Made by a program: the position numbers and the translations under genes | Part shown: piece after piece, positions 36,070 to 53,402 of the stretch | How the letters are laid out: each line of letters begins with the position of its first letter | Numbering within the stretch: the first letter of the stretch is position 1 | Assembly (NCBI RefSeq): GCF_900015215.1 | Contig: NZ_LN555523.1 | Coordinates: forward strand, 1,349,481 to 1,413,480 | Reading direction: 5' to 3' | DNA: 64,000 nt | From: Romboutsia ilealis | GTDB taxonomy: Bacteria > Bacillota > Clostridia > Peptostreptococcales > Peptostreptococcaceae | The notes under the pieces: generated by a model | Databases searched by the model: none | What the model was told of the DNA's origin: nothing | The model's input: the letters and a program-made list of their open reading frames with translations, nothing else

Positions 36070-36233
36070 ATTATTTTTATACTGAAATCAAGATATATTA
36101 GGAATAAAAAGTATAATCAATAATCAAACTATTATCTAGTAGGTACGCTATTGTAAAAGTAAACAATCTAAACAGATTTAAACTTACTTTACAGAGCTAA
36201 ATAATTGGATAATAAACTTTATACCATAAAACG

Positions 36234-36283
36234 AAAAAAGAACTATCTGTAAGCTATTAAATGCTTATACATAGTTCTTTTTG
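36234..36283. terminator. Second terminator hairpin downstream of the HTH gene
   Basis: AAAAAAGAACTAT ... ATAGTTCTTTTT with a nested GTAAGC/GCTTAT stem. The surrounding stretch 35962-36548 otherwise shows no gene. Confidence 0.75.
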
Positions 36284-36548
36284 TTATTTTTATTTGATTA
36301 TAGTGTAATCAACTTTTAATTATTGAAATTTGAACAATAAATTAAATTGATTATACTTTTAGCTCCATATACTTAATATTAGCTCTATTTTCTTTATAAT
36401 TTATATTATATCAAACTATTTAATAATCTCGCCTTGTAAATATGTCTTAGTTCATCATATTTCCCTTTAATAAATTTATCAATAGTATCTAGGTATCCAA
36501 ATCCTCTTCTAATTTATACTATAATTGCTATTCTATAATTATCTTTTA

Positions 36549-36752
36549 TTAAAATTTTCGTTTAAACTTAGGACATGATGCCCAAGCATACATATTTGCA
36601 TTTCTTATTAAGCATTTACACATTGCATTATGTTCATATTCCCAAAGACCTGCAACAGTATTAACTGGTCTTAAATTAGAATTACATGGATCATACCAAT
36701 TAACACAGAATGCACATATTTTAGCATTTTTTATACTAGCTATTTTTTTCAT
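36549..36752 (-). CDS. Small cysteine-rich protein
   Basis: 67 residues, GGGGGGAATT before ATG. Six Cys: CAFC at 13-16, C23, C45 and C47 (MCKC), C60 (SCPKF), plus conserved-looking WYDPCNSNLRPV and AMCKCLIRNANMYAWASCPKF. The pattern suggests a zinc-binding fold or a 2-disulfide/metal cluster. I do not know the family. It sits directly downstream (70 bp) of the two dynamin genes on the same strand and could belong to their operon. Confidence 0.65.
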   Translation of the reverse strand: MKKIASIKNAKICAFCVNWYDPCNSNLRPVNTVAGLWEYEHNAMCKCLIRNANMYAWASCPKFKRKF

Positions 36753-36821
36753 AATTCCCCCCCATGATACAAAATATTAGAAATATATTTTTATATAGCT
36801 AATTTTATTAAATAACATTAT

Positions 36822-38528
36822 TTATAATATAGCATGCATATCTATCTGATTTTTTAAATCAATTAATTCTTTTTTTATATCAATCAATTCACTTACCATA
36901 GTATTTTTCTTCGCTAATTCTCTATTAACTTTATTGCTTTCATTATTTATATTATCAATCATCTTATTAAAAGTGCAATTAATAAAATCTTGAATTTGTT
37001 CTATAAATTCTTCTTCTATTTGATTTATTATCTTGTTAAATTCATTTTTTAAATTTTCTTTTTCCCTTAAAATTTCTTGCTCTCTTTTACTATCTGCTAA
37101 AGTATCTTTAATAGTAACTCCTACATCTATAAATGATATTATAGGACCTAAACATTTTGCAACATTTCCTATATTTTTACTTATATTTACAGCTTGCCAT
37201 GGTTTAAATTTATATCCGAATTTATGTCCAACAAATTTAACACCTTGGTGTATAAAGCTACCTGATGCTTCTGATGCAGTTCCAAAAAACTTACTTGTTC
37301 CTTTAGTAAAAGTTTTTTGAATTATAGTATCTGCTCCTCCTTTTGTCATTTTTTTTATTTCATTATATAAATTATGCTCAGCCTTACTAATTTTACTAAA
37401 ATTAAGTTTACTATTATTTAATTTTGATCCATTTTCAATATAATAAACAACAATTTCACTATTAAAAAAATCTTTTATTTCATCATCTAAATATTCTTGA
37501 CTATTATAAATTACATCTTCTAAACTTGAAGTTATGCTATTATATATTTTTTCTATCATATTATTAATATAAATTTCATCATATTTTTCAATATCTTCAG
37601 TACCTATAGAATTTAATATTTGATTAACATTTATATTAAATTCTAATATTCCATTATTTAAAATTTGTTCGCATTCTCTTTTAGTTTTATTTCTATTATA
37701 TATAATCTTACGTTGTAACCTATTAAGTATAGCAATTCCATTATTTCTACTATCGTTATTATATTGAGTTTCTAATATATCATCTATTGAATGTATAATT
37801 AATTCTGCTGGCGTTGTTAATTTCGCTAATTGACCCTTTCTAGTAATAAAATTATTTAACATCTCTTTAAATTCATTAAAATGGCTATATTCAATTAAAT
37901 TATTATTACATTCATTAATTCCATCTACATAATCTTTTACATCTATATATGCTACATCAAATGAATCTAATGTATATGGTGATAATGATTTATTTAATGT
38001 AATTTCATAATTTTCTTTTAATTGCTCATACTCACCTGCTTCTTTTGACATTTTATTAATAACAAATAATATTTTGTTTTTGTAGTTCTGTTCAAATGCT
38101 AATTTAATAAAATTACTAAGTGTACAAGGATTAAATAAATCACTTGTAATACAAAATACTAATAAATCTGCTTTTTTTATACATTCTATTGTAATTTCAT
38201 CATGTTCTTTTCGTTCTGTATATAAACCAGGAGTATCAGTTAAATAAAATCCACCCCATTCATAATTAGTAGTTTCTTCTGTAGTTATGTTACTTCCAAT
38301 TTTTATACCTTTATTTCCAGTCAATGCACTTATTATACTAGACTTACCTGCTGTATACTGACCAATAAAAGCAATTTTTATTTTCTCTTCATCTTGTATG
38401 TTTTTCATGTCTGAAATTAATTTATTTCTATAATCCGTAATATCATTATCTGTTAGAAGCTTAATAACCTTATTATAATTATTATAGATCCTTTCAGATA
38501 TTTCACCTGACTTAAATCTATTCTCCAT
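36822..38528 (-). CDS. Dynamin-like GTPase, second of a pair (LeoA/LeoB-like)
   Basis: 568 residues from ATG at 38528 (AAGGAG at 7 bp; the frame opens at 38534). G1 GQYTAGKSS (about 56-64), switch TTEETTNYEW, G3 DTPGLYT, G4 NKMS. The middle is predicted coiled coil. A hydrophobic stretch near 405-475 (TKGTSKFFGTASEASGSF ... CLGPIISFIDVGVTI) resembles the membrane-associating tip of LeoA-type bacterial dynamins. It overlaps the upstream GTPase gene by 11 bp. Known for the family: paired bacterial dynamins assemble as hetero-oligomers on membranes, in vesicle release and in phage defence. Function here is inferred. Confidence 0.85.
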   Translation of the reverse strand: MENRFKSGEISERIYNNYNKVIKLLTDNDITDYRNKLISDMKNIQDEEKIKIAFIGQYTAGKSSIISALTGNKGIKIGSNITTEETTNYEWGGFYLTDTPGLYTERKEHDEITIECIKKADLLVFCITSDLFNPCTLSNFIKLAFEQNYKNKILFVINKMSKEAGEYEQLKENYEITLNKSLSPYTLDSFDVAYIDVKDYVDGINECNNNLIEYSHFNEFKEMLNNFITRKGQLAKLTTPAELIIHSIDDILETQYNNDSRNNGIAILNRLQRKIIYNRNKTKRECEQILNNGILEFNINVNQILNSIGTEDIEKYDEIYINNMIEKIYNSITSSLEDVIYNSQEYLDDEIKDFFNSEIVVYYIENGSKLNNSKLNFSKISKAEHNLYNEIKKMTKGGADTIIQKTFTKGTSKFFGTASEASGSFIHQGVKFVGHKFGYKFKPWQAVNISKNIGNVAKCLGPIISFIDVGVTIKDTLADSKREQEILREKENLKNEFNKIINQIEEEFIEQIQDFINCTFNKMIDNINNESNKVNRELAKKNTMVSELIDIKKELIDLKNQIDMHAIL

Positions 38529-40546
38529 AATCAATCTCCTTAAATTTTAATATATTTACATTTTCTTTTATAAGATTTTTTAACCTTTTTGTATCTTTAT
38601 GTAAAGATTGTGTTGTATATATTTTAATTTCATTTTCATTTCGTTCTACCTTAGGAATTCTTATAAATAATTCATCTTGTTTTATATTTAAATCTTCATA
38701 ATTATCTTCTAAAAATTCAATTATACGCCATGCATACATTTTATTTATTTTATCATTTTCTATATTTACTTTATTGTGTATTTGTATAGATTCTTTTAAA
38801 ATTTTATTAAATCCATCTATTAGATTATTTAATGATTTGTAGATATGATTTTGAATTGATTCTGTATTTCCACAAATTTGATCATTTATATCTTGATAAT
38901 ATTTTTCTCTTTGTTCTTCTAGTTTACTTTTTAACTGTTTATGAAAATTATTTATTGATTCTCTTCTTTTTTCTTCTTTTGATTTAAATAAGTTTGATAG
39001 TATTCCACCTAGTACACTACCTATCGTAAGAATCCATCCTAATGGACCTGAAACAAAAAAACTTCCTATTAATCCTACTATAGAACTAATTATTGTTCCA
39101 ATAGTTTTAAATGAAAATTCACTATTTATGTTAAAACCACTATCCATACTTATACTCTTAAATGCATAACTAATATCCTCATATAAATCATTTACTAATT
39201 GTGAAATATTCGAATTATACTCAAGAGATGCTTTCTTAATTTCATTATTTAATTCTTCCGTAAATCTAATATCTAAAATAAATTGATTCCAATTAGATTG
39301 TATTCTTTGTTCATCATTTTTATAATTTTCTTCTGCAAATATAATAGAGTCTTGCTCTATTAATTTATTAAAATTATACTGAACTATTTGTAGTACTTGT
39401 TTTTTATAGTCTTCACTGTATGTTTTAAGTGTATTTTCCATTGTAGATTTACTATTTTTTAGTTTTTCTATTTGAGTTTTCAATATATTTATTTGATTTT
39501 CAAAAGTTAAACTACATTCATTAAATAAAAATGATGTATCATTTAAAATAGTTTTACTTCTACTTATTTTCCCTGATGTTAAAATATTATCTTGTATACC
39601 ATTAGTAAATTCCTCTATATTTGATGAATTGTATAATAGTTCTCTATAATGTGAAAACTTCTCTTCTTTAGACATTAATGCTGCTAATAAAAATACAGGA
39701 TATATTTTCACTTCATCTTTATACCCTTTGTTATATAAATATTGATTAATTCTATTTATATAACCTTCTATTTTATCTCCTTCTTTCCATTTATTAGGTT
39801 TTTTTATAAATTCATCAAATCGTGCATTCCTAATATTCTCTTTATGATTTAATAGTATAATTATCGGTTTATTTCTTACTAATAATTTTTCTATCATTTC
39901 TAATGTATCTTGGTGTATTGTATCATCGGATGTAATAAAGCAAATTAAATCAGACTCTCCTATTACACTGTTTGCTATCTCTTCATCTACTCTTCCATTT
40001 TCTTCTGCTCCACCTATTCCTGGTGTATCTATAATTCTAATACTTTTCCATTGATATACTCTATTAAACTTTGTTGTTCTTTGCATCCCTACTCCAATAC
40101 ATTCTTTTCCTTCTCCAGTTAATACTGTATGTAATGTACTTTTTCCAGCTTTAGTTCTTCCTATAAGTGAAATTGTATAATTATTAATTGCATTTTGTTT
40201 TTTATATAATTCTTCATTATAACCGTCCATCTTATCACTTACATCTGTCTTTATAGTATTTAGCAGTCCTTCTATTATTCCATCTGCTTCATCATGTGTA
40301 TTTTTATCTATACCTGTATTTATATTTTTAATATCTAAACTTATGCTCTCTAAATCAGCAATGTAATTAGCTAGATGATTATCTATATTTTTATATATTG
40401 GAGTAATATATTCAAAGTCATTTTCTGCTATTTTTTTACATAATTCTATAGTTTCATTGTATTTTAATTCTATTTTATCTTTGTTATAGTTAGCTCTACC
40501 AAATATTCTGTCTATTAATTTCTTTATTATATTTATTAAATTAACT
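38518..40546 (-). pseudogene. Dynamin-like GTPase, 3' part of a gene split by IS982
   Basis: The frame is open from the IS boundary (40546) to the stop at 38518, without an ATG until 40230. So 105 codons upstream of that Met (RIFGRANYNKDKIELKYNET and on) are the true continuation of the gene at 41665-42134. The GTPase has G1 GRTKAGKST, G3 DTPGIGG, a variant G4 (LLNHKE) and, around the middle, a double membrane segment (SIVGLIGSFFVSGPLGWILTI). A 570-residue product from ATG 40230 would keep the GTPase domain, but no clear ribosome site precedes it. The intact gene would encode about 828 residues. Confidence 0.9.
40535..40546. repeat. Direct repeat flanking the IS (left copy)
   Basis: ATTAAATTAACT, identical to 41665-41676. 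It marks the insertion site. Removing the IS and one copy joins the two ORF halves in frame. Twelve bp is longer than the usual IS982 duplication of 7-9 bp, so part of the match may be chance. Confidence 0.85.
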
Positions 40547-41664
40547 CGTTGTGCTAGTTAAATTTTTCAATAATAAAACTCCAACAAATATAGTATCCTA
40601 AGATTATCTCTACTATTCTAAAGGAGGATTATATATGCTAGAGTTTAATAATTATTATATCCAAGATCAAAAAAATTTAACTGATTTATTTACAAATATA
40701 TTTGTAATTATAGATGATATATATAATGAGATTATACCTATAACTGTAAGTAATAGACGTAATATAAAAGATAGCAAACTTTCTGATAGTGAGATAATCA
40801 CTATTAGCATAGTTGGTGAACTTTTAACTATTGATTCTGAAAAAGCATTCTTTAGTTTGCTTAAAAGGGAATATAAAAATCTATTTCCAAAGATAGGAGA
40901 TAGAACGAGATTCAACAGAACTAAAAGAAACTTATATTGGGTAATATCTAAAATAAGAGAGCATATTTCTTTATTTATGCAATCTTATTCTAACAATATA
41001 AGAATTGTAGATAGTATGCCTATTCCAGTATGTGAATTTGGTAGAGCACATTTTAGTAAATGCTTTAAAGGCGAAGCCTCTTATGGTAGATGTCCTTCAA
41101 AAAAACAAACTTATTTTGGATTTAAATTTCATGCTCTTACTACAATAGATGGATTTTTATCTGATTATATTATAACTCCAGCTAATGTAGATGATAGAAA
41201 TGCAGTATGGGATTTATGTGATAAATATAAATCTATTTCTATTATTGGTGATAAAGGGTATGTAAATAAAAGGCTAACGCCTGAACTGAAAGTTGAAAAG
41301 GATATAAATCTATTATTTTTAAAGCGCGGAAATAGTAAAGATAATTATCCCAAAGATATAAGACAATTGATATTTAAAGCTAGAAGAAGGATAGAAACTA
41401 GTTTTTCTCAGTTGGCAGAACAATTAAATTTGAATAAAGTAAAAAGTAAATCAATGTTAGGATTTATAACTAGAACTTCAATAAAAGTTTTAGCTCATAA
41501 TATATCATTTCTAATAAACAAATTAATGGGAAATGAAGATTCTATATCTAAAATAAAAAGATTAGTATTTGGATAAAAATTACAAATACTAATCTTTCAT
41601 AGGATATTCTTTTTTGCACAATTTAAATTCCTTTATTTGGAAAAATAATTAACTAGCACAACAG
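40547..41664 (+). mobile_element. Complete IS982-family insertion sequence, 1118 bp
   Basis: Ends CGTTGTGCTAGTTAA and TTAACTAGCACAACAG, imperfect only at the outermost bases, and flanked by 12-bp direct repeats. It carries one transposase gene. The downstream hairpin of the transposase end (CAAATACTAATCTTT region) is inside. It splits the TerB-dynamin gene. Remnants of the same element are at 23489, 33710 and 50620. The intact frame and repeats suggest a young insertion that may still be mobile. Confidence 0.93.
40635..41576 (+). CDS. IS982-family transposase
   Basis: 313 residues, AAGGAGGATTATAT before ATG. Catalytic-domain segments: VDSMPIPVCEFGRAHFSK (first Asp), DYIITPANVDDRN, IIGDKGYVN (second Asp), RRRIETSFSQL (Glu), consistent with the DDE fold of IS982. 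Length is normal. N-terminal 80 residues include a helix-turn-helix. Intact, so it could supply transposase to the deleted copies. Confidence 0.94.
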   Translation: MLEFNNYYIQDQKNLTDLFTNIFVIIDDIYNEIIPITVSNRRNIKDSKLSDSEIITISIVGELLTIDSEKAFFSLLKREYKNLFPKIGDRTRFNRTKRNLYWVISKIREHISLFMQSYSNNIRIVDSMPIPVCEFGRAHFSKCFKGEASYGRCPSKKQTYFGFKFHALTTIDGFLSDYIITPANVDDRNAVWDLCDKYKSISIIGDKGYVNKRLTPELKVEKDINLLFLKRGNSKDNYPKDIRQLIFKARRRIETSFSQLAEQLNLNKVKSKSMLGFITRTSIKVLAHNISFLINKLMGNEDSISKIKRLVFG

Positions 41665-41676
41665 ATTAAATTAACT
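41665..41676. repeat. Direct repeat flanking the IS (right copy)
   Basis: ATTAAATTAACT, identical to 40535-40546; see that entry. The frame of the TerB-like half passes through it. Confidence 0.85.
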
Positions 41677-42134
41677 AATATATTTTTACTTTTATTCTCA
41701 TTAGTATTTTTATAATTTTTATTTTCTTCATTAATATTATTAATAATATTTCTAACATCATCTTCAAAGTATTCTAAATCTAATTTACTTAAACCACAAG
41801 CATTCATACATTTTTCTATTATTTCATTTTCTTTTGGATGTTTATTATCATCAGCATTTCTAATACACATCAATAAAAAAATTATTTCTTTCTGTAATTC
41901 TTCCGATTCTTTTTCTAATGCTAATATCGCACTATTTAATGTTACCTTGTCATCATTATCATTTAGTATATTGTTTATTATATTATAAGCATCTTCCCCT
42001 AATTTTTTATCTTTTATAAATAAATCTAGTACTTTTAGCTCATAACTGTGTATATGATTATCACATACAATCATATAACCTATAATAGCTAATAAATTAT
42101 AATCCTTTATTTGTATTAAATAATCAAATTTCAT
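41665..42134 (-). pseudogene. TerB-like N-terminal part of the split dynamin gene
   Basis: ATG at 42134 (AGGTGA upstream; the frame opens at GTG 42146). About 155 residues: helical domain with the TerB-like metal motif pattern (GYMIVCDNHIHSYELKVLD, then a second acid-rich repeat IRNADDNKHPKENEIIEKC). It ends KSKNILVNLI at the IS boundary. Reading into the IS adds only CCAS and a stop at 41649. TerB-like domains are known in tellurite-resistance and phage-defence proteins and sit N-terminal to GTPases in some LeoB relatives. Restored gene: 470 bp here plus 2017 bp at 38518-40534, exactly 829 codons. Confidence 0.88.
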
Positions 42135-42146
42135 CTTTATTATCAC

Positions 42147-42484
42147 CTATAATTTTAATGTTATTTTTATCTTCCTATTTCTGATATTATTATATAAATA
42201 ATCTTTTAATTATTTAATCACAGCTTTACTCTCCTTTCTTATCTTTATAAAGTCAATTATATTCTAATATAATATGTATTGAAATATATCTTACTTTATT
42301 CATTTACTTTTATATGTATTTTCTAAATAATGATTAATTCAATCATATAATATAATAAAATAAAAATAAACTTAATAATTACTTTTTATTTTAAACTATT
42401 ACACCTTTACATATATTATTATACTAATAAAATAGACGCCAAAATGTTAATCTAGCGTCTATTTCTATATAAAAAATGATAAAT
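42147..42484. other. Intergenic region
   Basis: Contains the promoter region of the dynamin operon and the RiPP terminator at 42430-42464. No ORF with a ribosome binding site on either strand. Strongly AT-rich. Confidence 0.6.
42430..42464 (-). terminator. Terminator of the RiPP operon
   Basis: AAATAGACGC ... GCGTCTATTT, 10-bp stem, 21 bp beyond the stop codon at 42485. Confidence 0.88.
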
Positions 42485-44062
42485 TTAAATATTAGTACAG
42501 TATTCATTATTATGTAATGAAATATAATAATCATATATTTCTTTTAAAATACTTTCTTCATTTATAAAATATTCCCAAAATTTATCTTCTACTTTTTTAA
42601 ATTTTTCTAAATCAAATTCTATAAATAATATACTTAAATATTTTTTAATTACTTCAATATCTCTTTTCTTAAGTTCGGCAAGCTTATCAGAATATCTATT
42701 AATATCTTTATACCATATTTCATGCTCAAGCATACTATATGTAACCCAATCTAATTCATAATCTAATTTATTAAGTTTAGGTATCATTTTATTTCTTACG
42801 TACTCTAAGACTTCCTCTACCTCTTTATTTTTATACTTATATTTCACATCTAAATACTGTTTTTCATCATCTATTAATAGACCTTCTTTACTAGCTTTAT
42901 TGTATAAATCAGTATACTTATTGATAACTACAAATGAATATAGATAATTAAAAAGATATGTACATTCTACATTACATAAAAATTCAAAGTTTTCTTTTAT
43001 ACTTTTTTTCGAAGAATATGGATTAAATGATATAAATCCAAGAATAGGAAATATGTTATATTTTTTTAGTAAATCAATTATTTTATAATTATCTCTTACG
43101 GTTGTATATTTATTATATAAATCTAAATCACTTTGATTTCCAGATTCAATTCCAATGAAAACTTCAACAAATCCCACTTCTCGCATAATATTTAATAATC
43201 TATGATCTAGTGGTGTATCATCTATAGAATTTGCTTTCATATAACATTGATATGCTAAATTTAGATTCTTTGATTTTAGTTTTTCACAAAGCTCAAATAG
43301 CCTTCTTTTAGCAATTTCAGTATTTGGATCTAGTATATTATCATCTGTAAAAAATATTTTTTTTACACCAAATTTTTTACTAACATATTCAATTTGCTCA
43401 ACAATATCATCAATATTTTTATATACAATTTTTCCATGACGTTCATTACAAAATGAACAGTTTCCCGTGCATACATTATTTTTAGTTTGAATACAATGAA
43501 CTTTCCTTGAATTTCTATTATAACTATCTCTAATATAGTAATCATACGCTGGAGTCCATGTTATATTAGTATTAAAGTAATCCTTCTTATTATCAAGATC
43601 AAAAGGAGTTACAATTGAATCATGCTTAATTTCTAAATTACACTGAAAAAATTTATTTTTTATAAGTGACTCTAATAAATATTCTGTAGGTTTTTCTCCA
43701 TCACCAAGTACTATATAATCAATAAATTTATTTTCAGATACAATTTCTCTATAATATCTAGTAGGATATCCTCCTCCAAAATCAATAATTGCATCATCTT
43801 TTTTATTCTTAATTTCTTTTGCAATATTACAACACTTATTATAATTTGAACTATTAACTGAAAAAGCATATAAGTCATATTCCATACTAATAGAATCCAT
43901 AATCTCTTCTAATTTTGTTTTATTACTATAATATTGGATATCTATATTAAATCCCTTATTTCTAAGATAACCTAGTAATTGATCCATACCTATATTTCCA
44001 TATCTCCAAACATTATTAATAGAGATAAATAATATTCTAAATTTTTCTTTTATTTTATCCAT
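42485..44062 (-). CDS. Radical SAM enzyme with B12-binding-like N-terminal domain (RiPP maturase)
   Basis: 525 residues from ATG at 44062, overlapping the previous stop by 8 bp, with GGAGAG upstream; the frame opens at 44113. Residues about 8-150 form a B12-binding-like Rossmann domain (GMDQLLGYLRNKGF, then FGGGYPTRYYREIV and GDGEKPTEYLLE). The radical SAM cluster is CTGNCSFC at 198-205 (CX3CX2C), followed by FFTDDNILDP and VFIGIESGNQ. The C-terminal 150 residues are unassigned. Cobalamin-type radical SAM enzymes catalyse C-methylations and other modifications in RiPP pathways. The usual DXHXXG base-off His motif is not evident, so cobalamin use is uncertain. Second enzyme of the operon with the 31-residue precursor at 45332. 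Confidence 0.88.
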   Translation of the reverse strand: MDKIKEKFRILFISINNVWRYGNIGMDQLLGYLRNKGFNIDIQYYSNKTKLEEIMDSISMEYDLYAFSVNSSNYNKCCNIAKEIKNKKDDAIIDFGGGYPTRYYREIVSENKFIDYIVLGDGEKPTEYLLESLIKNKFFQCNLEIKHDSIVTPFDLDNKKDYFNTNITWTPAYDYYIRDSYNRNSRKVHCIQTKNNVCTGNCSFCNERHGKIVYKNIDDIVEQIEYVSKKFGVKKIFFTDDNILDPNTEIAKRRLFELCEKLKSKNLNLAYQCYMKANSIDDTPLDHRLLNIMREVGFVEVFIGIESGNQSDLDLYNKYTTVRDNYKIIDLLKKYNIFPILGFISFNPYSSKKSIKENFEFLCNVECTYLFNYLYSFVVINKYTDLYNKASKEGLLIDDEKQYLDVKYKYKNKEVEEVLEYVRNKMIPKLNKLDYELDWVTYSMLEHEIWYKDINRYSDKLAELKKRDIEVIKKYLSILFIEFDLEKFKKVEDKFWEYFINEESILKEIYDYYISLHNNEYCTNI

Positions 44063-45254
44063 TTTTCCACTCTCCATCATAAGGATTATACATACATCTT
44101 GGATTTTTACCATTTATTCTATTGTTTGATATAGCAAGAGGTCTACAATCTTTACATGCATATCTATATTCACAGTCCTTGCACTCTTCTACTCTTGAAT
44201 AATCAAAATTCCAGCATACTTTTAATCTATTAGAATTAATAATTTCCTGAAGAGTGTTATTTCTTATATTTCCATAAGATACGTTTCTCTCAAATACACA
44301 AGGTAAAATATCACCATTTTCACAAACTACTAATTTACTATACCAACAAGTGTTACGATTAATATATTCATCAAAATCACTCTTTTTTATTGAAAAATTA
44401 GCTTTTTTTCTATATGCCATTTTCAAAATATTTTCCATTACAGGTAAATGATTAGATTGACTTCCATCAATTACTTCTCTTATAACATCAAATCTTACAC
44501 CTGAAACATTTAACTGTCCTACAAATGCTTTTATTTCATCATAGTGTAACTCATTTTCTCTCATTAAAGTTACAGCTATATTAACTTTTACACCTTTCGA
44601 AACTAAAAATTTTATATTTTCTACTAGCCTATTAAAACTACCCTTTATACCTGTAATTCTGTCGTGAACATCTGAATTTTGACCATACAATGAAACTTTT
44701 ACATTAATATCATTATCAATAATAATATTATTCATTTCATCATCTAAAAAATATCCATTAGTGAATAGTGTCGTAGAAATATTCTTTTTGGATAAATATA
44801 ATAAGATATCTTTTATATTTTTGTGGGTACATGGTTCTCCACCTATTATAACAACTCTATCTACAGATAACTCGGCTATATCATCAATTACTTGTTTCCA
44901 TTCATCAATTGATAATGAGTTATTTTTATCACTTATATGATTTTCACCCTCATAACAATGCAAGCACCTCATATTGCAAGCTTGTGTTATCTCTAGCCAA
45001 ACAAGCCTTAGCCTGTCTCTCTTTTTTTCAGGAATATACTTAGAAGAAGAAAAACTTTTATTAATTAGGTTATTTGATTCAAGTAAATCTAGATATTCTT
45101 TTTCTGCTTCTATTAATTCCACTCCATCTATATATTTATTAACTATTTTACAAGCATCTTCATTAATTGAAAAAACATCACCATTATTCAAATCATAAAT
45201 TGCTCCACGCTTAGCACCTTTAACATAAATTACATCATTGTTTATTTGATACAT
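44055..45254 (-). CDS. Radical SAM/SPASM peptide maturase with N-terminal PqqD-like domain
   Basis: 399 residues, AAAGGAGGAAGT before ATG. Residues 1-70 look like a PqqD-type precursor-recognition element (VKGAKRGAIYDLNNGDVFSI, then a helical half). The radical SAM motif is CNMRCLHC at 93-100 (CX3CX2C). The SPASM tail has CX10GX4C (CWYSKLVV.ENGDILPC pattern) and CKDCEYRYACKDC (CX2CX5CX2C) plus a final Cys in RCMYNP, consistent with two auxiliary 4Fe-4S clusters. This architecture belongs to sactipeptide, ranthipeptide and cyclophane synthases, which build thioether or C-C crosslinks on a ribosomal peptide. The precursor gene lies 78 bp upstream. Confidence 0.92.
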   Translation of the reverse strand: MYQINNDVIYVKGAKRGAIYDLNNGDVFSINEDACKIVNKYIDGVELIEAEKEYLDLLESNNLINKSFSSSKYIPEKKRDRLRLVWLEITQACNMRCLHCYEGENHISDKNNSLSIDEWKQVIDDIAELSVDRVVIIGGEPCTHKNIKDILLYLSKKNISTTLFTNGYFLDDEMNNIIIDNDINVKVSLYGQNSDVHDRITGIKGSFNRLVENIKFLVSKGVKVNIAVTLMRENELHYDEIKAFVGQLNVSGVRFDVIREVIDGSQSNHLPVMENILKMAYRKKANFSIKKSDFDEYINRNTCWYSKLVVCENGDILPCVFERNVSYGNIRNNTLQEIINSNRLKVCWNFDYSRVEECKDCEYRYACKDCRPLAISNNRINGKNPRCMYNPYDGEWKNG

Positions 45255-45276
45255 ACTTCCTCCTTTTGTAGTATCT

Positions 45277-45306
45277 AAAAAGGACTATTTTAATTATAGC
45301 CCTTTT
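45277..45306 (-). terminator. Leaky terminator/attenuator between precursor and maturase genes
   Basis: On the minus strand AAAAGGGCTAT, short loop, ATAGTCCTTTTT: a 7-bp stem with one G-U pair followed by T-run. It sits between the precursor stop and the maturase ribosome site. In RiPP operons such hairpins give high precursor and low enzyme expression. Confidence 0.7.
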
Positions 45307-45331
45307 CATAATTTATCTATTTTTTAGTTAA

Positions 45332-45427
45332 TTAATCATCTGGATTACATCCATCTGATGGTCCACAATCTGTCAAACAAAAATCTCTTTTATCTTCTTC
45401 ATGTGTAACTTTTTCTAATGTTGGCAT
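45332..45427 (-). CDS. RiPP precursor peptide, 31 residues, three cysteines
   Basis: ATG at 45427 preceded by AGGAGGTGGATTAT, an ideal ribosome binding site; TAA at 45332. The peptide starts MPTLEKVTHEEDKRD (charged leader-like half) and ends FCLTDCGPSDGCNPDD, with Cys at 17, 21 and 27 (CX3CX5C). It precedes, on the same strand, the two radical SAM enzymes, with an attenuator hairpin between. Family knowledge: short precursors with Cys, Asp, Ser and Gly in the C-terminal half are substrates of SPASM enzymes forming thioether links. No signal peptide or double-Gly cleavage site is obvious. I do not recognise a named precursor family, including SCIFF (six Cys in 45). Confidence 0.85.
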   Translation of the reverse strand: MPTLEKVTHEEDKRDFCLTDCGPSDGCNPDD

Positions 45428-45737
45428 ATAATCCACCTCCTATATACTTTTAATTTTATTAAATTTATAATACATGTAGAACCATTTTTAGTTCATTTAT
45501 ATTTTTATAATATATTTATACCTATATTGTCATTATATAAGCCATTCTTATAGTTTGATCTACATTAGATATAAATCTAAATTTCTTGTTTATAACATTA
45601 TGCTATCCATAGTTTTGTAAATTAGATAATTTAATCTCTCTCATACACAAAAAATTCTTATTTTCATATATTAACTAATATAACCATTAATCATATACTA
45701 AAAATAATATATGATTTTAAAAGGAGGGATAATCTCA

Positions 45738-46808
45738 ATGAAAGAAGCTAACCGTAAAAAATGGACTAATATTGAAGTTGTAGGTTTAATACTTGTTATT
45801 TCAAGCCTTTTAGCTCTTATTTTCTCACCAGATAGCTTATCTAATCTTTTTAACTCTATTACAGCTCAAGTATTCCCAATAGTTGTAGATGTCTTTCTAA
45901 CAAGTGATGTTGGCATAGCTATAGTTGTAAGTGTAATTGTAGGACGTATACTAGAACGATTTGGCTTTACAGATGCTCTAATTCGCCTATTCTTACCTAT
46001 AATGAAATTACTAAATATAAATCCTTCTGTTGTTATCCCAAGTATATATAACATACTAGGTGATATTAATGCATCAGGAAAAGTCGCTGGTCCTGTACTT
46101 GTTAAAGCAAATGCAACGAAAGCAGAACAAAAAATTGCAGTAGCCACTATGATACAAAACCCTCAATCTTTTGCTACATTTGTATTGGGAATAATTACTC
46201 TTAGTGTATTTAAAATCAATAGCTTACCAGTCGTTATACTATCAATATTCTTACCTCTTATAATTGTACCTTTTATATTATCTAAAACTATCTATAGAAA
46301 TACTAAAGGTGTTGAATTAGAAGAACTTCCTCGATTTACTCCTGATACACCTATTATGAAGGTTCTATTTGATTCAGGAGCCGAAGGTATGCATCTATTA
46401 TTATTAGTAATAATACCTGCTGTAGCTGTAGTATTTTCTATAATCGGAGTTTTAGATTTCCTTGGAATATGGAGTCAAATTCAATATTATATGGGATCTA
46501 TTTTATCTGTTTTAGGAATTGAGCCATCAAGTGGTATAGTTTCTTTTTTAGTAAGTCCAACTTTAGCAATGTCACAAGTAGCTGATTTAGTTGGTCAAAT
46601 TAATCCTCGTTTGGTAGTTGGAGGCTTTGTACTTGCAAACTCTGGATTACCATTATCTGTAATTGTAGGGCAAGTACCTGTTACCTGGGCTGAATCAACA
46701 GATTTAACAGAGAAAGAAGCTTTAAATGCTGCAGTATTAGGATGTTTAATTAGAGTAGTAACTGCTACTATATTAGCATATGCTCTTACTCCATTTATAG
46801 TCGGGTGA
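45738..46808 (+). CDS. Membrane protein with nucleoside-recognition (Gate) domains
   Basis: 356 residues from ATG at 45738 (AAGGAGGG upstream; the frame opens at 45711). About eight membrane segments in two Gate-like repeats (GRILERFGFTDALIRLFLPIM ... and VSPTLAMSQVADLVGQINP). The Gate family includes YjiH, SpmA/B and nucleoside transporters; the substrate is usually unknown. The next gene, an amidohydrolase, starts 5 bp later, so the pair probably imports and hydrolyses one compound. It is divergent from the RiPP operon; no sign that it belongs to it. Confidence 0.8.
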   Translation: MKEANRKKWTNIEVVGLILVISSLLALIFSPDSLSNLFNSITAQVFPIVVDVFLTSDVGIAIVVSVIVGRILERFGFTDALIRLFLPIMKLLNINPSVVIPSIYNILGDINASGKVAGPVLVKANATKAEQKIAVATMIQNPQSFATFVLGIITLSVFKINSLPVVILSIFLPLIIVPFILSKTIYRNTKGVELEELPRFTPDTPIMKVLFDSGAEGMHLLLLVIIPAVAVVFSIIGVLDFLGIWSQIQYYMGSILSVLGIEPSSGIVSFLVSPTLAMSQVADLVGQINPRLVVGGFVLANSGLPLSVIVGQVPVTWAESTDLTEKEALNAAVLGCLIRVVTATILAYALTPFIVG

Positions 46809-46813
46809 TTATA

Positions 46814-48025
46814 ATGAAAGATTATAAATTTGCATATCGTGCTAATAAAATCATTACAGTGTCTGAAAAAGGAACTGTAGAAGATGGAGTAATTATTATA
46901 AATAATGGGAAAATTGAAGATATAGGAACTTATAAAGAATTAAAAAATAAACTTGATAATATATCTATGTATGATTATGGTGAAAAAGTAATCACGCCTT
47001 CCTTAATTGACTGCCACTGCCATTTATTAGAATATGCACCTGGATCACTTTATCCGGTTACAAAAGAAACATATCTAGAAGCTGGAAGAATACTATTATT
47101 TAATGCACTTTTATCGGGAATAACATGTATAGGAGAACAAATTTGTGGAAGTCCTATATGTAATATTTCTATAGATGATTATATGCAAATAGCTAAAGAT
47201 TCTCCTATAAGAGTAAAGTTTTCATTAAATACTATTACAATAGGAACAAATGATTTACCTAATTATACTTGTCTACATGAAAATGAACAAGTTAATAAAA
47301 ACATATTGTCAGATATTGAAATAATCTCTGAAATAGCTAATAAAAACGAATATCCCGGTGAAAATATATTTATTAACGCTACACCTGCTAATCTACCTGC
47401 TTCTTTAGTTCCTAGAGCTGGTGAGATTATTTTTACAGAAAAAGAACTTAAGTCTATAGTAGATACTTTTCATAATAAAGATAAAAAAATCGGAGCTCAT
47501 GTTGCTGGATATGAAGGAATTAATTTAGCACTTAGATGTGGTATAGATGTTCTTCATCATGCTCATGGTATTAGTGATGAACAAATAAAAATAGCAAAAG
47601 ATAATAAAACTTCTATTGTCGCAACACCTTTAGGTGGTACACATCTCACACCTAATTTGCCTTCTGATATCTTAAAGTTAGTAAAAGAAGGAATAGATGT
47701 ATCAATTGCAACTGATGCATATTTACCTCCAGCACCTCATCTAAATTTAGATGAGACTATTCTATATGGTTCTGATGTGTTAATGCTTATTGCTCAGCCT
47801 TCTATGAAATTATTATTTAAAAATGGATTTGATGAGAATGCATGTCTTTCTTTATTAACTACTAATCCCGCTAAGGTGTTAGGGTTAGAAAATAGTGTTG
47901 GGAAACTTGATATTGGTATGAGTGCCGATTTTTTAGTTGCTGATGGTGTTCCAGGACTAGATATTACTGATCCTAGTCAGATATCAGCTATATTTATAAA
48001 TGGAAATAAATTAATTTCTAGATAA
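46814..48025 (+). CDS. Amidohydrolase-superfamily metal-dependent hydrolase
   Basis: 403 residues from ATG at 46814; a GTG at 46805 is possible but overlaps the previous stop. Metal motif DCHCHLLE (HXH, about 66-73), then HVAGYEG, HHAHGI and TDAYLPPAP, the ligands of the binuclear or mononuclear TIM-barrel site, and the C-terminal LGLENSVGKLDIGMSADFLVADG typical of imidazolonepropionase/prolidase-like members. Translationally coupled to the Gate-domain carrier. Substrate likely a cyclic amide, dipeptide or modified amino acid taken up by that carrier. Confidence 0.88.
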   Translation: MKDYKFAYRANKIITVSEKGTVEDGVIIINNGKIEDIGTYKELKNKLDNISMYDYGEKVITPSLIDCHCHLLEYAPGSLYPVTKETYLEAGRILLFNALLSGITCIGEQICGSPICNISIDDYMQIAKDSPIRVKFSLNTITIGTNDLPNYTCLHENEQVNKNILSDIEIISEIANKNEYPGENIFINATPANLPASLVPRAGEIIFTEKELKSIVDTFHNKDKKIGAHVAGYEGINLALRCGIDVLHHAHGISDEQIKIAKDNKTSIVATPLGGTHLTPNLPSDILKLVKEGIDVSIATDAYLPPAPHLNLDETILYGSDVLMLIAQPSMKLLFKNGFDENACLSLLTTNPAKVLGLENSVGKLDIGMSADFLVADGVPGLDITDPSQISAIFINGNKLISR

Positions 48026-48488: not shown

Positions 48489-50591
48489 TTATATGTTATT
48501 TATAATTAAATCTCCACTATATTTAAAGTGATTTTGCTGCTTAACTTCCTCATCCAACTTTAAAATAAGTGCTTCAACATTTTCTTGTGCTAGTATGTCT
48601 AAATTTTTTTCAAATTTATTAAACCACTTTGATACAGTGTCACTATTTAAGTTATACCTTTCCGATATTTTTTTAAAAGTTAAGTTTGTATTTAATTTTA
48701 CACTACATATATCTTTCTTAAACTGTTCATTATAAATATTTCTATATCTAAATTTCTGTTTATATATAAAAAATTTATCAAACTCTTTCTTCTTTCTATC
48801 ATAGTATATATTAGCATCCTTATATATTAGTTGATAAAATTCACATTTTTCTATTATATCAAATTTATAAGTATTTCTATCTGAATGATCTGAGTTATAA
48901 CTTAAATTTATATTGTGTTGCTTTAAATAATCTCTTAATCCAACTATAAAGTTATTATTAACACTTGCAAAGCTTACACTTAAAGTTCCTTTGCTAAAAC
49001 ATGAAGTTCCATCTCCGTCAAAAAAACCTCTTATAAAATGAGGTATTAGATTTTTAGGTACTATATCCTCACTTGGAAAATCTATTTTAAAAGTTTTCCT
49101 TCCTGTAACTCCTAGTTTATTTAGATCACCTATTAATTCTTTATCATATATAAACAATCTTGCCCTTTTAAAGTACTCATCGCTATTTCTATCTACTCTA
49201 GTATAGGAATAATTAATTCTACCTGTATACTTAATTGAATTTTTAAAGCAACTTAATATAAATCTATCTTCATATTTAACAGAAAGTTCTAATGTATATC
49301 TATTACTATCATCACTAACCCCTCCATCTGCATATATAAATCCTAAATAGTATGCTTGCTCTTCGTTTGTTACTTTTTTGAAAAAACTTTTGTCAAAGCT
49401 ATATTTTCTTTTACTTTTATCTTTAAACTTAGAAGTATCTATTCCATTTTTATTTAATACAAAACCTACTATATGAACATTTGTATTATATTTTTTTGCT
49501 AAGTCACGTATAGACATACGTTCAATACTTTCATCATTATATAATATTATAATTTTATCCAGATCCTTCTCTATTTCTTTTATCTTACTCTTGTATTCTA
49601 ATTCTATATATTCACCATAAAAATCATACTTCAGAAAATTTACATAATTATAATATATTCCTACTTCCTTACAAATCTGTCCTACACTTTTGCATATACC
49701 CTGTCTTTTATATTTATCAAATAACTCATTATACTTTTTAATATTCTCTTTTATAGTTTCATAATCTTCTTCATTATTTCTATTATATTCTTTCATATAA
49801 TTAGAGAATATCTTCCTATTTATACCAAAGTAAAATTCAATCTTACTATAAGATAGTTTATATTTATTAATATTCTCAATATAACATTTACCTGCTATTA
49901 CCTTTAATTTATCTAGTATTATATCTGGTATTACCCTTACATTTAGTTTTAATATATCCGATATTTCCCGTATAGTATAATTACTTATAATTTCTATATA
50001 TTCATTATTCACACTATATTTCTTATTATTGATTACAGAACTTGCTATATCTCTTAATAACTCTTCTTCATTTAATTTGTAAAATTTATGATTTATATAT
50101 AGTATGTTTTTTTCAATGATGTCATTTATAGTACTATTATCATACGGATAGGTGAGTGATTTTTTTGTTTTAATATTAATATTATCATTCTTTAATCTTA
50201 TTTTTAAGGGTCTTTCTTCTATTCCTGAGTCTGCTGATAATTTTTCGAGAGATTCATAGGATACATATTTAAGTAATACCTTACTTGCCTTATATCTAGA
50301 ATCTGTAATCATGTCATTTAATCTTTTTATTGAAATATATTCTTTTAAAAACTCCAAATTTATTTCAAATACATTCCCTTCAAATTCGACTTCTTTTTGT
50401 TTTAGTATACTTTGAATTTGTATATATAAATCTTGTCTTATATTTAAAATTTCATCTTCAAATGCTTTACAATCTCTTTCACAAAATCCCCCTGAAAAGT
50501 TTTTTAAATTACTATTTAAAATATCTCCATCTAAAATTTCTCTAATATTGTTACAATTTTTAAATGGATATCTATTAATTCTTTTATTCAT
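48489..50591 (-). CDS. Free-standing LAGLIDADG endonuclease-like protein with flanking HTH modules
   Basis: 700 residues, GGGGGT upstream of ATG. Two LAGLIDADG helices are clear: AYYLGFIYADGG (about residues 408-419) and IPHFIRGFFDGDGT (about 518-531), each with the acidic metal ligand, giving a single-chain homing-endonuclease-like core (about 400-610). N-terminal 400 residues have several HTH-like helices (GQICKEVGIYYNYVNFL, MSIRDLAKKYNTNVHIVG) and the C-terminus another (FKKISERYNLNSDTVSKWF). It is not within an intron or intein. Known LAGLIDADG proteins with HTHs include WhiA and mobile-element endonucleases; this is far longer. It is adjacent to a tyrosine recombinase and a 41-bp IS982 scar. 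Confidence 0.85.
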   Translation of the reverse strand: MNKRINRYPFKNCNNIREILDGDILNSNLKNFSGGFCERDCKAFEDEILNIRQDLYIQIQSILKQKEVEFEGNVFEINLEFLKEYISIKRLNDMITDSRYKASKVLLKYVSYESLEKLSADSGIEERPLKIRLKNDNINIKTKKSLTYPYDNSTINDIIEKNILYINHKFYKLNEEELLRDIASSVINNKKYSVNNEYIEIISNYTIREISDILKLNVRVIPDIILDKLKVIAGKCYIENINKYKLSYSKIEFYFGINRKIFSNYMKEYNRNNEEDYETIKENIKKYNELFDKYKRQGICKSVGQICKEVGIYYNYVNFLKYDFYGEYIELEYKSKIKEIEKDLDKIIILYNDESIERMSIRDLAKKYNTNVHIVGFVLNKNGIDTSKFKDKSKRKYSFDKSFFKKVTNEEQAYYLGFIYADGGVSDDSNRYTLELSVKYEDRFILSCFKNSIKYTGRINYSYTRVDRNSDEYFKRARLFIYDKELIGDLNKLGVTGRKTFKIDFPSEDIVPKNLIPHFIRGFFDGDGTSCFSKGTLSVSFASVNNNFIVGLRDYLKQHNINLSYNSDHSDRNTYKFDIIEKCEFYQLIYKDANIYYDRKKKEFDKFFIYKQKFRYRNIYNEQFKKDICSVKLNTNLTFKKISERYNLNSDTVSKWFNKFEKNLDILAQENVEALILKLDEEVKQQNHFKYSGDLIINNI

Positions 50592-50619
50592 ATGATACCC
50601 CCTTATATAATTTAATTAT

Positions 50620-50660
50620 CGTTGTGCTAGCCCATTATTTTATATTTAACTAGCACAACG
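50620..50660. repeat. 41-bp IS982 scar: both terminal repeats facing each other
   Basis: CGTTGTGCTAG (50620-50630) and CTAGCACAACG (50650-50660) are the exact outer 11 bp of the IS982 copies, with only 19 bp between. The internal 1.1 kb is absent. It is either a deletion derivative or a minimal non-autonomous element, and it forms a strong hairpin between the recombinase and LAGLIDADG genes, so it may also work as a terminator. Confidence 0.85.
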
Positions 50661-50674
50661 AGTTGATTGAATAT

Positions 50675-51247
50675 TTATCCTCTTAAGTTTTTTAATGCCT
50701 CTTCAAATTCTTCATCAACAATGTGAGTATAAATCATCGTTGTACTTAAATCTTCATGTCCTAAAGCCTTTTGAACTAATCTTATATTTTTAGTAGATCT
50801 TAATAAATCAGATGCAAAAGTATGCCTAAAGGTATGAGGGCTTACATTCTTACTTATCCCTGCTCTTTTTGAATACTTATATACCATTCTTCGAACATTT
50901 CTATCGTCTAATTTATTTTTGCTATTAGTAGTAAATACTAAATCACATATGCCTAATTTTTCAGATTGTTTTTCTTTCCACATTCTCAACTCTTCTACCA
51001 CACTATCAGAAATCCAAAGTATTCTATCCTTCGAACCTTTTCCTTCTAGTACCTTCAATTGACCAGTCATTAAATTAATCTCTTTCCACCTTAGATTAAT
51101 CAGCTCTGATAATCTCAATCCAGAAGCTAAAAATAATGTAATAATAGTTCGATTTCTAATCGAATTAAAATACCTAACATTAAAAATACTCATTATCTGC
51201 TTCTGCTCTTCCTCAGTTAAAATTTCTGGAATTTTCCTTCTTGCCAT
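50675..51247 (-). CDS. Minimal tyrosine recombinase (catalytic domain only)
   Basis: 190 residues from ATG at 51247 (GAAGGAGT upstream; the frame opens at 51286). All catalytic residues are visible: Arg in GLRLSELINLRW, Lys in GKGSKDR, HTFRHTFA (His, Arg), LGHEDLSTT (His), and the Tyr nucleophile in MIYTH. The N-terminal SAM-like core-binding domain of normal integrases (about 100 residues) is missing, so it resembles short XerC-like or phase-variation recombinases. It may act on inverted repeats near the island or be an orphan integrase. Confidence 0.88.
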   Translation of the reverse strand: MARRKIPEILTEEEQKQIMSIFNVRYFNSIRNRTIITLFLASGLRLSELINLRWKEINLMTGQLKVLEGKGSKDRILWISDSVVEELRMWKEKQSEKLGICDLVFTTNSKNKLDDRNVRRMVYKYSKRAGISKNVSPHTFRHTFASDLLRSTKNIRLVQKALGHEDLSTTMIYTHIVDEEFEEALKNLRG

Positions 51248-51406
51248 AAAAATACTCCTTCTAAGTACTTTTACCCTAAAATACATATTATAGGGTATTA
51301 TGCACCTATATTGTTATTATAGAATTTTCTTATTAATCTATAACTATATAAAAGGGTATTATACACAAAGTTAAATTTTTAATTTCATTTATCACACTTT
51401 GCATAA

Positions 51407-51450
51407 AAAAATAAGCTAAGATATTTTATAAAATATCTTAGCTTATTTTT
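51407..51450 (-). terminator. Terminator of the mcrBC operon
   Basis: AAAATAAGCTAAGATATTTT ATAAAATATCTTAGCTTATTTT stem, 12 bp past the stop codon at 51462. Confidence 0.88.
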
Positions 51451-51461
51451 ACTTCTAATGC

Positions 51462-53396
51462 TTAGTATAAATCGCCTCTATATGACTTACTGCATACAGG
51501 ACAATGTACATCCCACTCTAACTTACTCTCTTTATGATAATTTCCATTTATATACTTATATAGATTTCTTATATTATTAGGATGCTCTTTTTTATATCTA
51601 CAAGAATTTCGAACCCAAAATGCACCACACTTATTATCACTACATTCATAATGAGTCTTATATCCTTTATCATCTAATATATTTCCAATATTTCCACACT
51701 CTGGACATATATAATCCCATCCCATATAAAAGTGTATAAGCATTTTTGCAAATATACTAATTCCATAACTATTCTTAGGGCTAGATGTAATATACCCACA
51801 CCTATGAGGTTTTAAATATTCAAAGTTGCTAGTAATATTCTTATCTGGATGAATCAAAAATGCTCCAACTGAATTTTTTGATAATTGTAAGTATCTATAT
51901 GCAGATATTTTTAAATCATTCTGCAATGTTTCTAATCTTTTACTATATGGTTTATACTTAGCATCTAAGAAAACTTCTCTACATTTATATTTATCAATCA
52001 TAACTAAGCTCAAATCTGGTCTTTGACCTTCCAAGTTCTTCTCTGATGTTATAATTATAGATTGTCCTTCTTTTCTTCTTATTTCTATACTAAATCCTCG
52101 CAAAGTCGAGTACTCATTATAATACTCAATCATTTTTTCAACTAGATTATCTGCTCCTTCATTGAATTTTAATTCATTTATAAAATAATCTAGTACTTTA
52201 AATAAAATCCATTTTTCATATAAATCTGGTGATTTTATTAAGTCATGCTTAAATATACTTAATATCTCATTTTTTCTAACTAATTTATTTAAAGTTTCAA
52301 AAACATCAAATACTTCTTGGTATAATGGATTGAAATTAAATATATGCGTATCTTCCCATGATTGAGTTACTATATCTTTAAATATTTCTATTTCTATAAT
52401 ATTATTTAACTTTTGTATAAGTTGTTTCCATGTGTTTATTCTATTATTAATGTTTATACCTTTTTCTTTAATATTCTTAATTCTATTATTTGCTTTTTTA
52501 GCTATATTAGCATCTCTAGTCTTTAGCTTTTTTATTTCATTAATCTGAAATCTTAAACTTTCATTTATACTTTCTTCATATTTTATTTGATTTTCACATA
52601 TATCTATTAACTCTTGTAATGCCCCTTTTAAAATCCTATGCTCTTTTAAATCTAAAGTTTTTTTAGATACATCGGTATTAAACATTTCCTTATATGGATA
52701 CATCTCTTGTTCTATGTACAACTTAGCATTAAACTTTTTTATTTTATCAACTTTTACTCTTTCTCTTACTTCTATTAGTAATTCTTGTGGATTATCATTA
52801 ATTTCTTCTAAAATATCACATAAGTTATCTATATATATACTAAGTGAATCAAGATTAATTAATACATTACCTGATGTACTTCCGTTATAATCTTTTTGAT
52901 AATTATCTAATAAATTTTCAGTAATTATTTTTAACTGAGTTTCCATAATATCATATTCTTCTTCAGTAACTAAATCGGGTATAATTTTTATCTCTGGTGT
53001 TTCATATTTATTTCCTTTACTATCTTCACCTTTAAACTTTATTACACCACATTGATTTATACCTATAGGATAACTTATAGGTTGATACTTTTTTAATTCT
53101 TCACTCCATATATACTGCGGAGTAGAGACCCATATACCTTTTTGCGCCTCTATCAAACTTCTATTATATCCAAATTTTCCAATAGCAGATACCCTTACTA
53201 AATCTTTATTGGTTATTATACCTATATTAACATACTTACCATTTATCTTAGTGTACTCTTTACCTATATAGTGATTATCTCTATACTCTAAATTTTTTAT
53301 TACCTCAACGTCCTTTACTTCACCTTCTATATGTTCTTTATTATCAACTCTAGAACTTAAATTTTTCCAAGATATATCTAACCATACTACTTCCAT
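51462..53396 (-). CDS. mcrC: McrC-like nuclease subunit (DUF2357, PD-(D/E)XK)
   Basis: 644 residues, GGGGGT upstream, 6 bp after the McrB-like stop. N-terminal DUF2357-like part (about 1-230), helical middle (about 240-400), then a PD-(D/E)XK nuclease: acidic GQRPDLSLVMID and EVFLDAKYKPYSK with D-A-K at the core. C-terminus adds a zinc-ribbon-like region with two CPXC knuckles (YICPECGN and HCPVCSK, about 570-640), which is longer than classic McrC. McrB and McrC together restrict DNA carrying modified cytosine; the GTPase-driven subunit loops DNA and McrC cuts. Confidence 0.88.
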   Translation of the reverse strand: MEVVWLDISWKNLSSRVDNKEHIEGEVKDVEVIKNLEYRDNHYIGKEYTKINGKYVNIGIITNKDLVRVSAIGKFGYNRSLIEAQKGIWVSTPQYIWSEELKKYQPISYPIGINQCGVIKFKGEDSKGNKYETPEIKIIPDLVTEEEYDIMETQLKIITENLLDNYQKDYNGSTSGNVLINLDSLSIYIDNLCDILEEINDNPQELLIEVRERVKVDKIKKFNAKLYIEQEMYPYKEMFNTDVSKKTLDLKEHRILKGALQELIDICENQIKYEESINESLRFQINEIKKLKTRDANIAKKANNRIKNIKEKGININNRINTWKQLIQKLNNIIEIEIFKDIVTQSWEDTHIFNFNPLYQEVFDVFETLNKLVRKNEILSIFKHDLIKSPDLYEKWILFKVLDYFINELKFNEGADNLVEKMIEYYNEYSTLRGFSIEIRRKEGQSIIITSEKNLEGQRPDLSLVMIDKYKCREVFLDAKYKPYSKRLETLQNDLKISAYRYLQLSKNSVGAFLIHPDKNITSNFEYLKPHRCGYITSSPKNSYGISIFAKMLIHFYMGWDYICPECGNIGNILDDKGYKTHYECSDNKCGAFWVRNSCRYKKEHPNNIRNLYKYINGNYHKESKLEWDVHCPVCSKSYRGDLY

Positions 53397-53402
53397 TATA
53401 TT

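Follow-up and report, generated by a model that had tools for sequence, protein, structure and literature searches.

A candidate radical-SAM peptide operon with a three-cysteine precursor in Romboutsia ilealis

Does a 31-codon open reading frame (ORF) ahead of two radical-SAM genes in Romboutsia ilealis encode the substrate of these enzymes, and what might they make of it? The locus lies on a 2.58-Mb contig (NZ_LN555523.1), and all positions given here are those of the 64,000-nt stretch that we analyzed, termed the window. A sequence-only reading had proposed a radical-SAM cluster for a ribosomally synthesized and posttranslationally modified peptide (RiPP), with a three-cysteine precursor, a SPASM-type enzyme (P0002), and a B12-type enzyme (P0003). 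Sequence comparisons support a real, rare, and uncharacterized family of radical-SAM RiPPs that differs from SCIFF and PapB, and the window probably holds a compact operon of this kind with a bridging SPASM enzyme and a methylating B12 enzyme. Genomes are designated G and loci L, each with a number.

The peptide gene and the operon

The genes are tightly packed on the minus strand, and transcription runs from the peptide gene to the SPASM gene and then to the B12 gene:

45332 to 45427, minus strand: precursor peptide gene, 31 aa (ORF, ribosome-binding site, simulation, and a related peptide in G444)
45428 to 45449, minus strand: ribosome-binding site, AAGTATATAGGAGGTGGATTAT before the ATG
45255 to 45331, minus strand: 77-nt spacer with a 13-bp hairpin (U-rich 3' arm) and the ribosome site of the SPASM gene, AAAGGAGG
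44055 to 45254, minus strand: SPASM radical-SAM gene, 399 aa, with AAAGGAGG as ribosome site
42485 to 44062, minus strand: B12-binding radical-SAM gene, 525 aa
42420 to 42484, minus strand: terminator-like 15-bp hairpin past the end of the operon

The precursor, MPTLEKVTHEEDKRDFCLTDCGPSDGCNPDD, carries Cys residues at positions 17, 21, and 27, and we propose that it is divided into a leader (residues 1 to 16) and a core (residues 17 to 31, CLTDCGPSDGCNPDD). An AGGAGG is well positioned 5' of the ATG, in the upstream stretch TATAGGAGGTGGATTAT-ATG. Four ORFs of 20 to 120 aa in the window have AGGAGG 4 to 11 nt before the start, and the precursor is the only one of them with at least 3 Cys in 16 residues; first-order Markov simulations (n = 30) yielded a mean of 0.6 AGGAGG-preceded ORFs, none of which had at least 3 Cys. 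The peptide ORF is far above chance. Its shortness and the lack of any Pfam or NCBIfam match might be expected of a spurious ORF beside enzymes that act on something else, but this explanation, already disfavored, is made highly improbable by the ribosome site, the simulation, and the likeness to a peptide in G444.

The stop of the peptide gene lies 77 nt from the start of the SPASM gene, which overlaps the B12 gene by 8 nt. The spacer hairpin has 13 bp (-13.7 kcal/mol, z = -3.05; equaled by 1 of 200 shuffles), and the hairpin after the B12 gene has 15 bp (-18.7 kcal/mol, z = -5.83; equaled by none of 200 shuffles). A consensus terminator scan returned no sites and scored neither hairpin; as the U runs lie inside the 3' arms of the hairpins, the term terminator is owed solely to the folds.

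Much of the sequence-only reading is borne out by these data and by those on the relatives below: the three-cysteine precursor with its ideal ribosome site, its place outside any recognized family, the translational overlap of the two enzyme genes, and the assignment to a radical-SAM RiPP cluster, for which enzyme domains over their cut-offs and upstream Cys-rich ORFs in all three other genomes, one of them aligning with the precursor, also speak. The operon's own terminator stands as a fold (z = -5.83) but not as a consensus site. The set had further been called unusual for its want of a protease, transporter, or immunity gene; we indeed recognized no protease, exporter, or immunity gene in the ten flanking proteins (Pfam scan), but this is not unusual, as many radical-SAM RiPP pathways consist of two or three genes (peptide, enzyme, and optional transporter) (PMC9062424).

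A SPASM subfamily and its upstream Cys-rich reading frames

P0002 contains the radical-SAM motif CNMRCLHC at residues 93 to 100, and both its Radical_SAM and its SPASM domain exceed the Pfam cut-offs. We found full-length relatives with 32 to 36% identity in G416 and G449 (one genus) and in G444 (another family of the class). All four members keep the three radical-SAM Cys without exception, as they do Cys 303, 319, 358, 361, 367, 370, and 387 of the SPASM region. The four-Cys block of P0002 reads CX2CX5CX2C; the canonical SPASM block is CX2CX5CX3C.

P0002 matches 76 NCBIfam models (E ≤ 1), and the best 25 of these all score below their own cut-offs. Its C-terminal 139 residues score 33.8 bits on the generic SPASM model TIGR04085, above the cut-off of 27, and the best match of the same piece is the grasp-with-spasm model TIGR04193 (83.8 bits, cut-off 175; next, 33.8), which by sequence is the nearest named family to P0002. 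Among structures in the PDB, the family profile matched SkfB (6efn) best (E = 7e-27) and also 5wgg, which we take to be CteB, with profile positions 19 to 368 covered and the 5wgg alignment beginning at position 19. The N-terminal 80 residues show a G..R..IYD.......SI signature that is conserved in the four-member alignment. In the G416 relative, the N-terminal piece matches TIGR04193 (E = 1e-5) and, under the cut-off, PqqD (PF05402; E = 0.0042, 17.8 bits against 23.4; 13.6 bits genome-wide). A PqqD- or RRE-type nature of this domain is weakly supported.

In each of the three other genomes, a Cys-rich ORF lies upstream of the SPASM gene on the same strand, as in the window (4 of 4 in total). 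The ORF of G444 has 61 aa and a gap of 201 nt; that of G416 has 161 aa, an acidic leader, and a CRPCPPSQ repeat, with a gap of 467 nt; that of G449, partly masked, is a long Cys/Pro repeat like the one in G416, with a gap of about 157 nt. The SPASM enzyme is a member of a rare subfamily in which the enzyme gene is preceded by a Cys-rich ORF.

The peptides of the window and of G444 align from leader to core (TLEKVTHEEDKRDFCLTDCGP-SDGCNP with TKEVKTYEQ--ITMCFPDCDPVFVGCSP). The score, obtained with the first 36 G444 residues and with a gap cost and 36-residue limit set after an earlier alignment, was reached by 4 (window) and 0 (G444) of 5,000 whole-peptide shuffles and by 36 and 41 of 5,000 core-only shuffles. 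Common to both is C-x2-D-C-x-P-x(2,3)-G-C-x-P; the pattern C-x2-D-C-x-P-x(1,4)-G-C-x-P, picked after viewing both peptides, occurred in 10 and 27 of 200,000 shuffled cores. The first Cys is residue 17 in the window peptide and 18 in the related peptides. The spacing CX3CX5C, whose conservation the sequence-only reading had suggested examining, is conserved in part: G444 has CX3CX6C, and G416 has no such spacing. C-x2-D-C is shared by the window and G444, and C-x2-D occurs twice in the former and three times in the latter (shuffle P = 0.08 and 0.06), with no occurrence in G416. Cys-x-Pro is found in all: it involves 2 of 3 Cys in the window and 7 of 7 and 28 of 29 in the relatives' peptides (shuffle P = 0.019, 0 of 20,000, and 0 of 20,000), with eight patterns tried and the G416 value inflated by repetition.

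We also noted a promoter-like block, ATGAATATnnTATAGGGTnACATnAAATA, kept upstream of the repeat-protein genes at about 3700 to 3760 of L008 (G416) and 735 to 793 of L009 (G449), where the surrounding DNA has otherwise diverged between the two genomes.

The subfamily is sparsely distributed. A class search of 391 genomes gave the three full-length relatives of P0002 and three weaker matches below them, in other genomes or genes, and a second one (341 genomes, mostly those of the first) again yielded these three relatives. P0002 was found only in the source genome among 99 relatives (E ≤ 1e-30), as was P0003 among 393 genomes of the order (E ≤ 1e-40); these order and class searches, like the one that gave the G1035 sequence discussed below, scored no more than 3 to 5 candidates in each genome, and some relatives may therefore have been missed. 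Profile A1 revealed no close relative beyond the source genome in 71 genomes of the family (E ≤ 1e-40), its two further matches (E = 1.8e-43, positions 90 to 388; E = 3.9e-41, positions 36 to 373) covering the N-terminal domain incompletely or not at all, and three congeners gave no match. Searches of the families and orders to which G416 and G444 belong (11, 22, 58, and the same 22 genomes) added only a distant relative in G1169 (E = 2.4e-52). Viral contigs gave no matches, nor did a plasmid megablast with window positions 36000 to 48000. Plasmids and phages contained only remote matches: at most 28.6% identity to P0002 in the best 20 of 328 plasmid matches, at most 27.9% in all 12 phage matches, and at most 26.9% to P0003 in the best 20 of 34 plasmid and phage matches. 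A genome-contig scan added three remote Anaerolineales enzymes (26 to 27% identity).

Proposed pathway and alternatives

We propose that the peptide is very probably the substrate of the SPASM enzyme. Its leader (residues 1 to 16) would be bound by the RRE-like N-terminal domain of the enzyme, which would abstract a hydrogen near Cys so that thioether bridges form with the help of the auxiliary clusters and 2 Da are lost per link. By analogy with characterized enzymes, we lean towards Cys thioethers as the product; the links may be non-alpha, ranthipeptide-like ones inside the C-x2-D or C-x-P units (C17-D20, C21-D25, C27-D30/31), although Asp as the acceptor is a tentative and rather doubtful assignment. 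The B12 enzyme likely acts on the same peptide, and we slightly favor a C-methylase, again by analogy, which would add 14 Da per methyl group to the core. The spacer hairpin could serve as a partial terminator, leaving the peptide in excess over the enzymes, and the leader may be removed by a protease encoded elsewhere, or the peptide used whole.

P0003 contains the radical-SAM motif CTGNCSFC (residues 198 to 205) and Pfam B12-binding (45.6 bits, cut-off 32.1) and Radical_SAM (54.7 bits, cut-off 29.5) domains. All 19 of its NCBIfam matches are below cut-off, with BchE at the top (101.6 bits, cut-off 481) and PhpK at 72.7 bits, and OxsB is the only match among PDB sequences. These two hits would suit an enzyme that forms or rearranges bonds in the peptide or in a small molecule, with the peptide perhaps as a carrier, the more so since BchE (ring formation), OxsB (ring contraction), and ThnL (thioether formation) all belong to the cobalamin radical-SAM enzymes (PMC13331322). 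Models of P- and C-methylases nevertheless match P0003 as well, likewise below cut-off, and methylation is described as the commonest reaction of the class (PMC11659888), so that we regard a nonmethylating enzyme as possible but doubtful. The best relative of P0003 that we found is 27% identical and belongs to G1035; we rejected it as a family member, its ORFs indicating an unrelated biosynthetic cluster.

Several results weigh against the proposed pathway or its generality. Bridging and methylation are inferred from characterized relatives; what we observe is the gene set and the similarity. The B12 gene adjoins the SPASM gene in the window only, that is, at one of the four family loci, and we found no enzyme pair like this one elsewhere; the B12 enzyme is therefore an accessory. 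With P0003, tblastn gave no match (E ≤ 1e-3) in the 18 to 19 kb around each of the SPASM genes of G416, G449, and G444, where the only CX3CX2C in open frames of at least 150 aa is that of the SPASM enzyme itself. The two-enzyme set that the sequence-only reading took as a unit does not hold as such. Its "PqqD-like" domain proved weaker than claimed: the N-terminal piece of P0002 has no Pfam match and a single chance-level NCBIfam match (E = 0.097; E ≤ 10 allowed), a profile of the N terminus alone found nothing convincing in the PDB, and two AlphaFold models were unusable (mean pLDDT, 46.8 and 41.7). The 467-nt gap in G416 weakens the link between ORF and enzyme there. With standard gap costs, the peptide alignments were weaker, their scores being reached by 112 and 42 of 5,000 shuffles against G444 and by 56 and 311 of 5,000 against G416, and the Cys-x-Pro value of the window (2 of 3 Cys, P = 0.019) would not on its own survive correction. 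The repeat core of G416 is devoid of Asp and Glu, which excludes Cys-Asp links as the reaction shared by all members; since Asp fits the window peptide but not this repeat, the members must either differ in their acceptor or share a target within Cys-x-Pro. Finally, a control scan of 32 radical-SAM loci for ribosome-site-preceded ORFs of 25 to 250 aa with at least 3 Cys in 20 residues and a start at most 700 nt upstream scored two of the four family loci (window and G444), the ORFs of G416 and G449 starting more than 700 nt away. The remainder of this control speaks for the proposal: of the 28 other loci, 4 scored (L013, L018, L019, and L028), and L013, itself RiPP-like, has the only nonfamily scoring peptide of less than 100 aa, the frames of the other three being too long for small peptides at 158 to 207 aa (105 aa from a nested start in L028).

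A sactipeptide-type reaction, in which the SPASM enzyme links Cys sulfur to alpha carbons as in subtilosin or thuricin and yields an antimicrobial peptide, would agree with SkfB, a sactisynthase, as the best solved relative. The distant G1169 relative also clusters with precursors (ACFVACGSLC..., ACVVACGMSC...) that share C-x3-C-G with the window core, with a second SPASM-type enzyme, and, by eye, with a peptidase-like gene and an ABC transporter. The window peptide, however, stops four residues past its last Cys and has no hydrophobic C-terminal half to accept the links, and the ten flanking proteins include no recognizable transporter; we consider this explanation unlikely. Even less likely, in our view, is that the Cys-rich ORFs encode proteins with a structural or metal-binding role, for instance at the spore surface, and that the enzyme cross-links these instead of maturing secreted natural products. 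The long Cys/Pro repeats and acidic leader of the G416 and G449 proteins, with no exporter seen around them by eye, would fit, and self-assembling Cys-rich spore proteins are known in Clostridia. Yet a sporulation-type -10 element, CATANNNT, is not common to the four upstream regions, and radical SAM appears in none of the spore-protein literature among the matches listed, as far as their available text goes. A sporulation promoter is not supported, as CATANNNT is scattered (-175 in the window, -41 in L008, -227 in L009) and absent from L010, with 0.35 to 0.55 occurrences expected per region.

More speculatively, the members could form a separate radical-SAM RiPP class built on the Cys-x-Pro unit, with precursors that range from 31 residues and a single core to a repeat protein of 161 residues, an idea to which we give little credence. 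If true, one enzyme subfamily would in one lineage bridge a short peptide that serves in signaling or metal binding and in another produce a polymer-like protein with multiple bridges; in the lineage of the window, the bridged core would be methylated by a B12 enzyme recruited for this purpose. "Cys-X-Pro" or "CXP motif" occurs in none of the literature matches listed, in the text available for them. The bridging and methylating operon that we favor adds to the known enzymes a SPASM subfamily that is small and thinly scattered, has no specific NCBIfam model among the best 25 of 76, and acts beside precursors matching no Pfam or NCBIfam model. The differing lengths and compositions of these precursors can show which residues the enzyme really needs, and the three-gene operon offers a minimal system for the order of bridging and methylation.

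Genomic surroundings and comparison with named systems

The operon looks like part of a variable stretch. It is flanked on one side by a transposase (40635 to 41576) and a TerB-like gene and on the other by divergently transcribed genes for a nucleoside-recognition (Gate) membrane protein and an amidohydrolase, with an integrase and DUF2357/AAA_5 genes farther out. At 48489 to 55328, the integrase (50675 to 51286) adjoins a LAGLIDADG-domain protein and the DUF2357 and AAA_5 pair, DUF2357 being just under its cut-off; we take this pair to recall McrBC-type defense genes. At 36822 to 40230 are two neighboring GTPase genes of 570 aa each, one dynamin-like, with a 17-nt overlap.

Among the best 25 of 76 models, grasp-with-spasm TIGR04193 is the only one that spans residues 4 to 397 of P0002 (82.5 bits), and its cut-off of 175 is reached neither by P0002 nor by the relatives in G416 (112.8 bits) and G444 (59.5 bits). 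The partner ATP-grasp gene of that system is missing from the ten proteins that flank the operon in the window (Pfam).

Ranthipeptide systems (SCIFF/CteB, TIGR03974; PapB/freyrasin, NF047865) likewise place a SPASM radical-SAM enzyme beside a Cys-rich precursor, but both models are absent from the best 25 of 76 for P0002 (weakest listed by E value, 64.8 bits). The SCIFF maturase of the source genome is a separate gene (727.4 bits, cut-off 425) whose product is 25% identical to P0002, in agreement with the earlier view that the cluster is not SCIFF; the SCIFF precursor has six Cys in 45 residues, and that of the window has three in 31 and no NCBIfam match. This maturase gene (G000:C1:2090005-2091378; L003, 1363 to 2736, minus strand) has no Cys-rich ORF in the 223-nt upstream gap or elsewhere in the 4-kb locus. 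The SCIFF peptide gene usually sits upstream of its maturase, and the maturase here is possibly an orphan, as judged from the 4-kb locus only. PapB links Cys to Asp within Cys-Xn-Asp, n being 0 to 6 (PMC9413430). The window core has Asp 3 to 4 residues after each Cys; the G416 repeat core has neither Asp nor Glu.

The sactisynthases SkfB, AlbA, and StsB share the radical-SAM and SPASM domains with P0002, which scores 72 to 89 bits against sactisynthase NCBIfam models with cut-offs of 300 to 850; unlike sactipeptides, the window precursor is without an acceptor half. SCIFF and sactipeptide chemistry has been reviewed (PMC8326336). The locus of the distant relative, L057 (G1169:C77:1-14000, positions 871 to 6966), contains tandem sactipeptide-like precursors (2475 to 2636 and 2675 to 2812) and a pair of SPASM-type enzymes, to which inspection by eye adds a peptidase-like gene and genes for an ABC transporter.

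P0003 has the B12-binding and radical-SAM domains of the cobalamin radical-SAM methylases and of BchE. A RiPP-like cluster of G416, L040 (G416:C1:4007000-4022000, positions 4004 to 10243), encodes a 42-aa peptide with a good ribosome site, MFEPEYMEVEASCSDCLNCAVCVTFPGLDAELAGTLMLAQLG, and an AlbA-like SPASM enzyme (220 bits, cut-off 850). It differs from the window by an additional S8-type peptidase and ABC transporter (by eye) and by low identity of the enzymes (24% for the B12 enzymes and 26% for the SPASM enzymes), but, like the window, it has a B12-type radical-SAM enzyme, a small Cys peptide, and a SPASM enzyme in a row.

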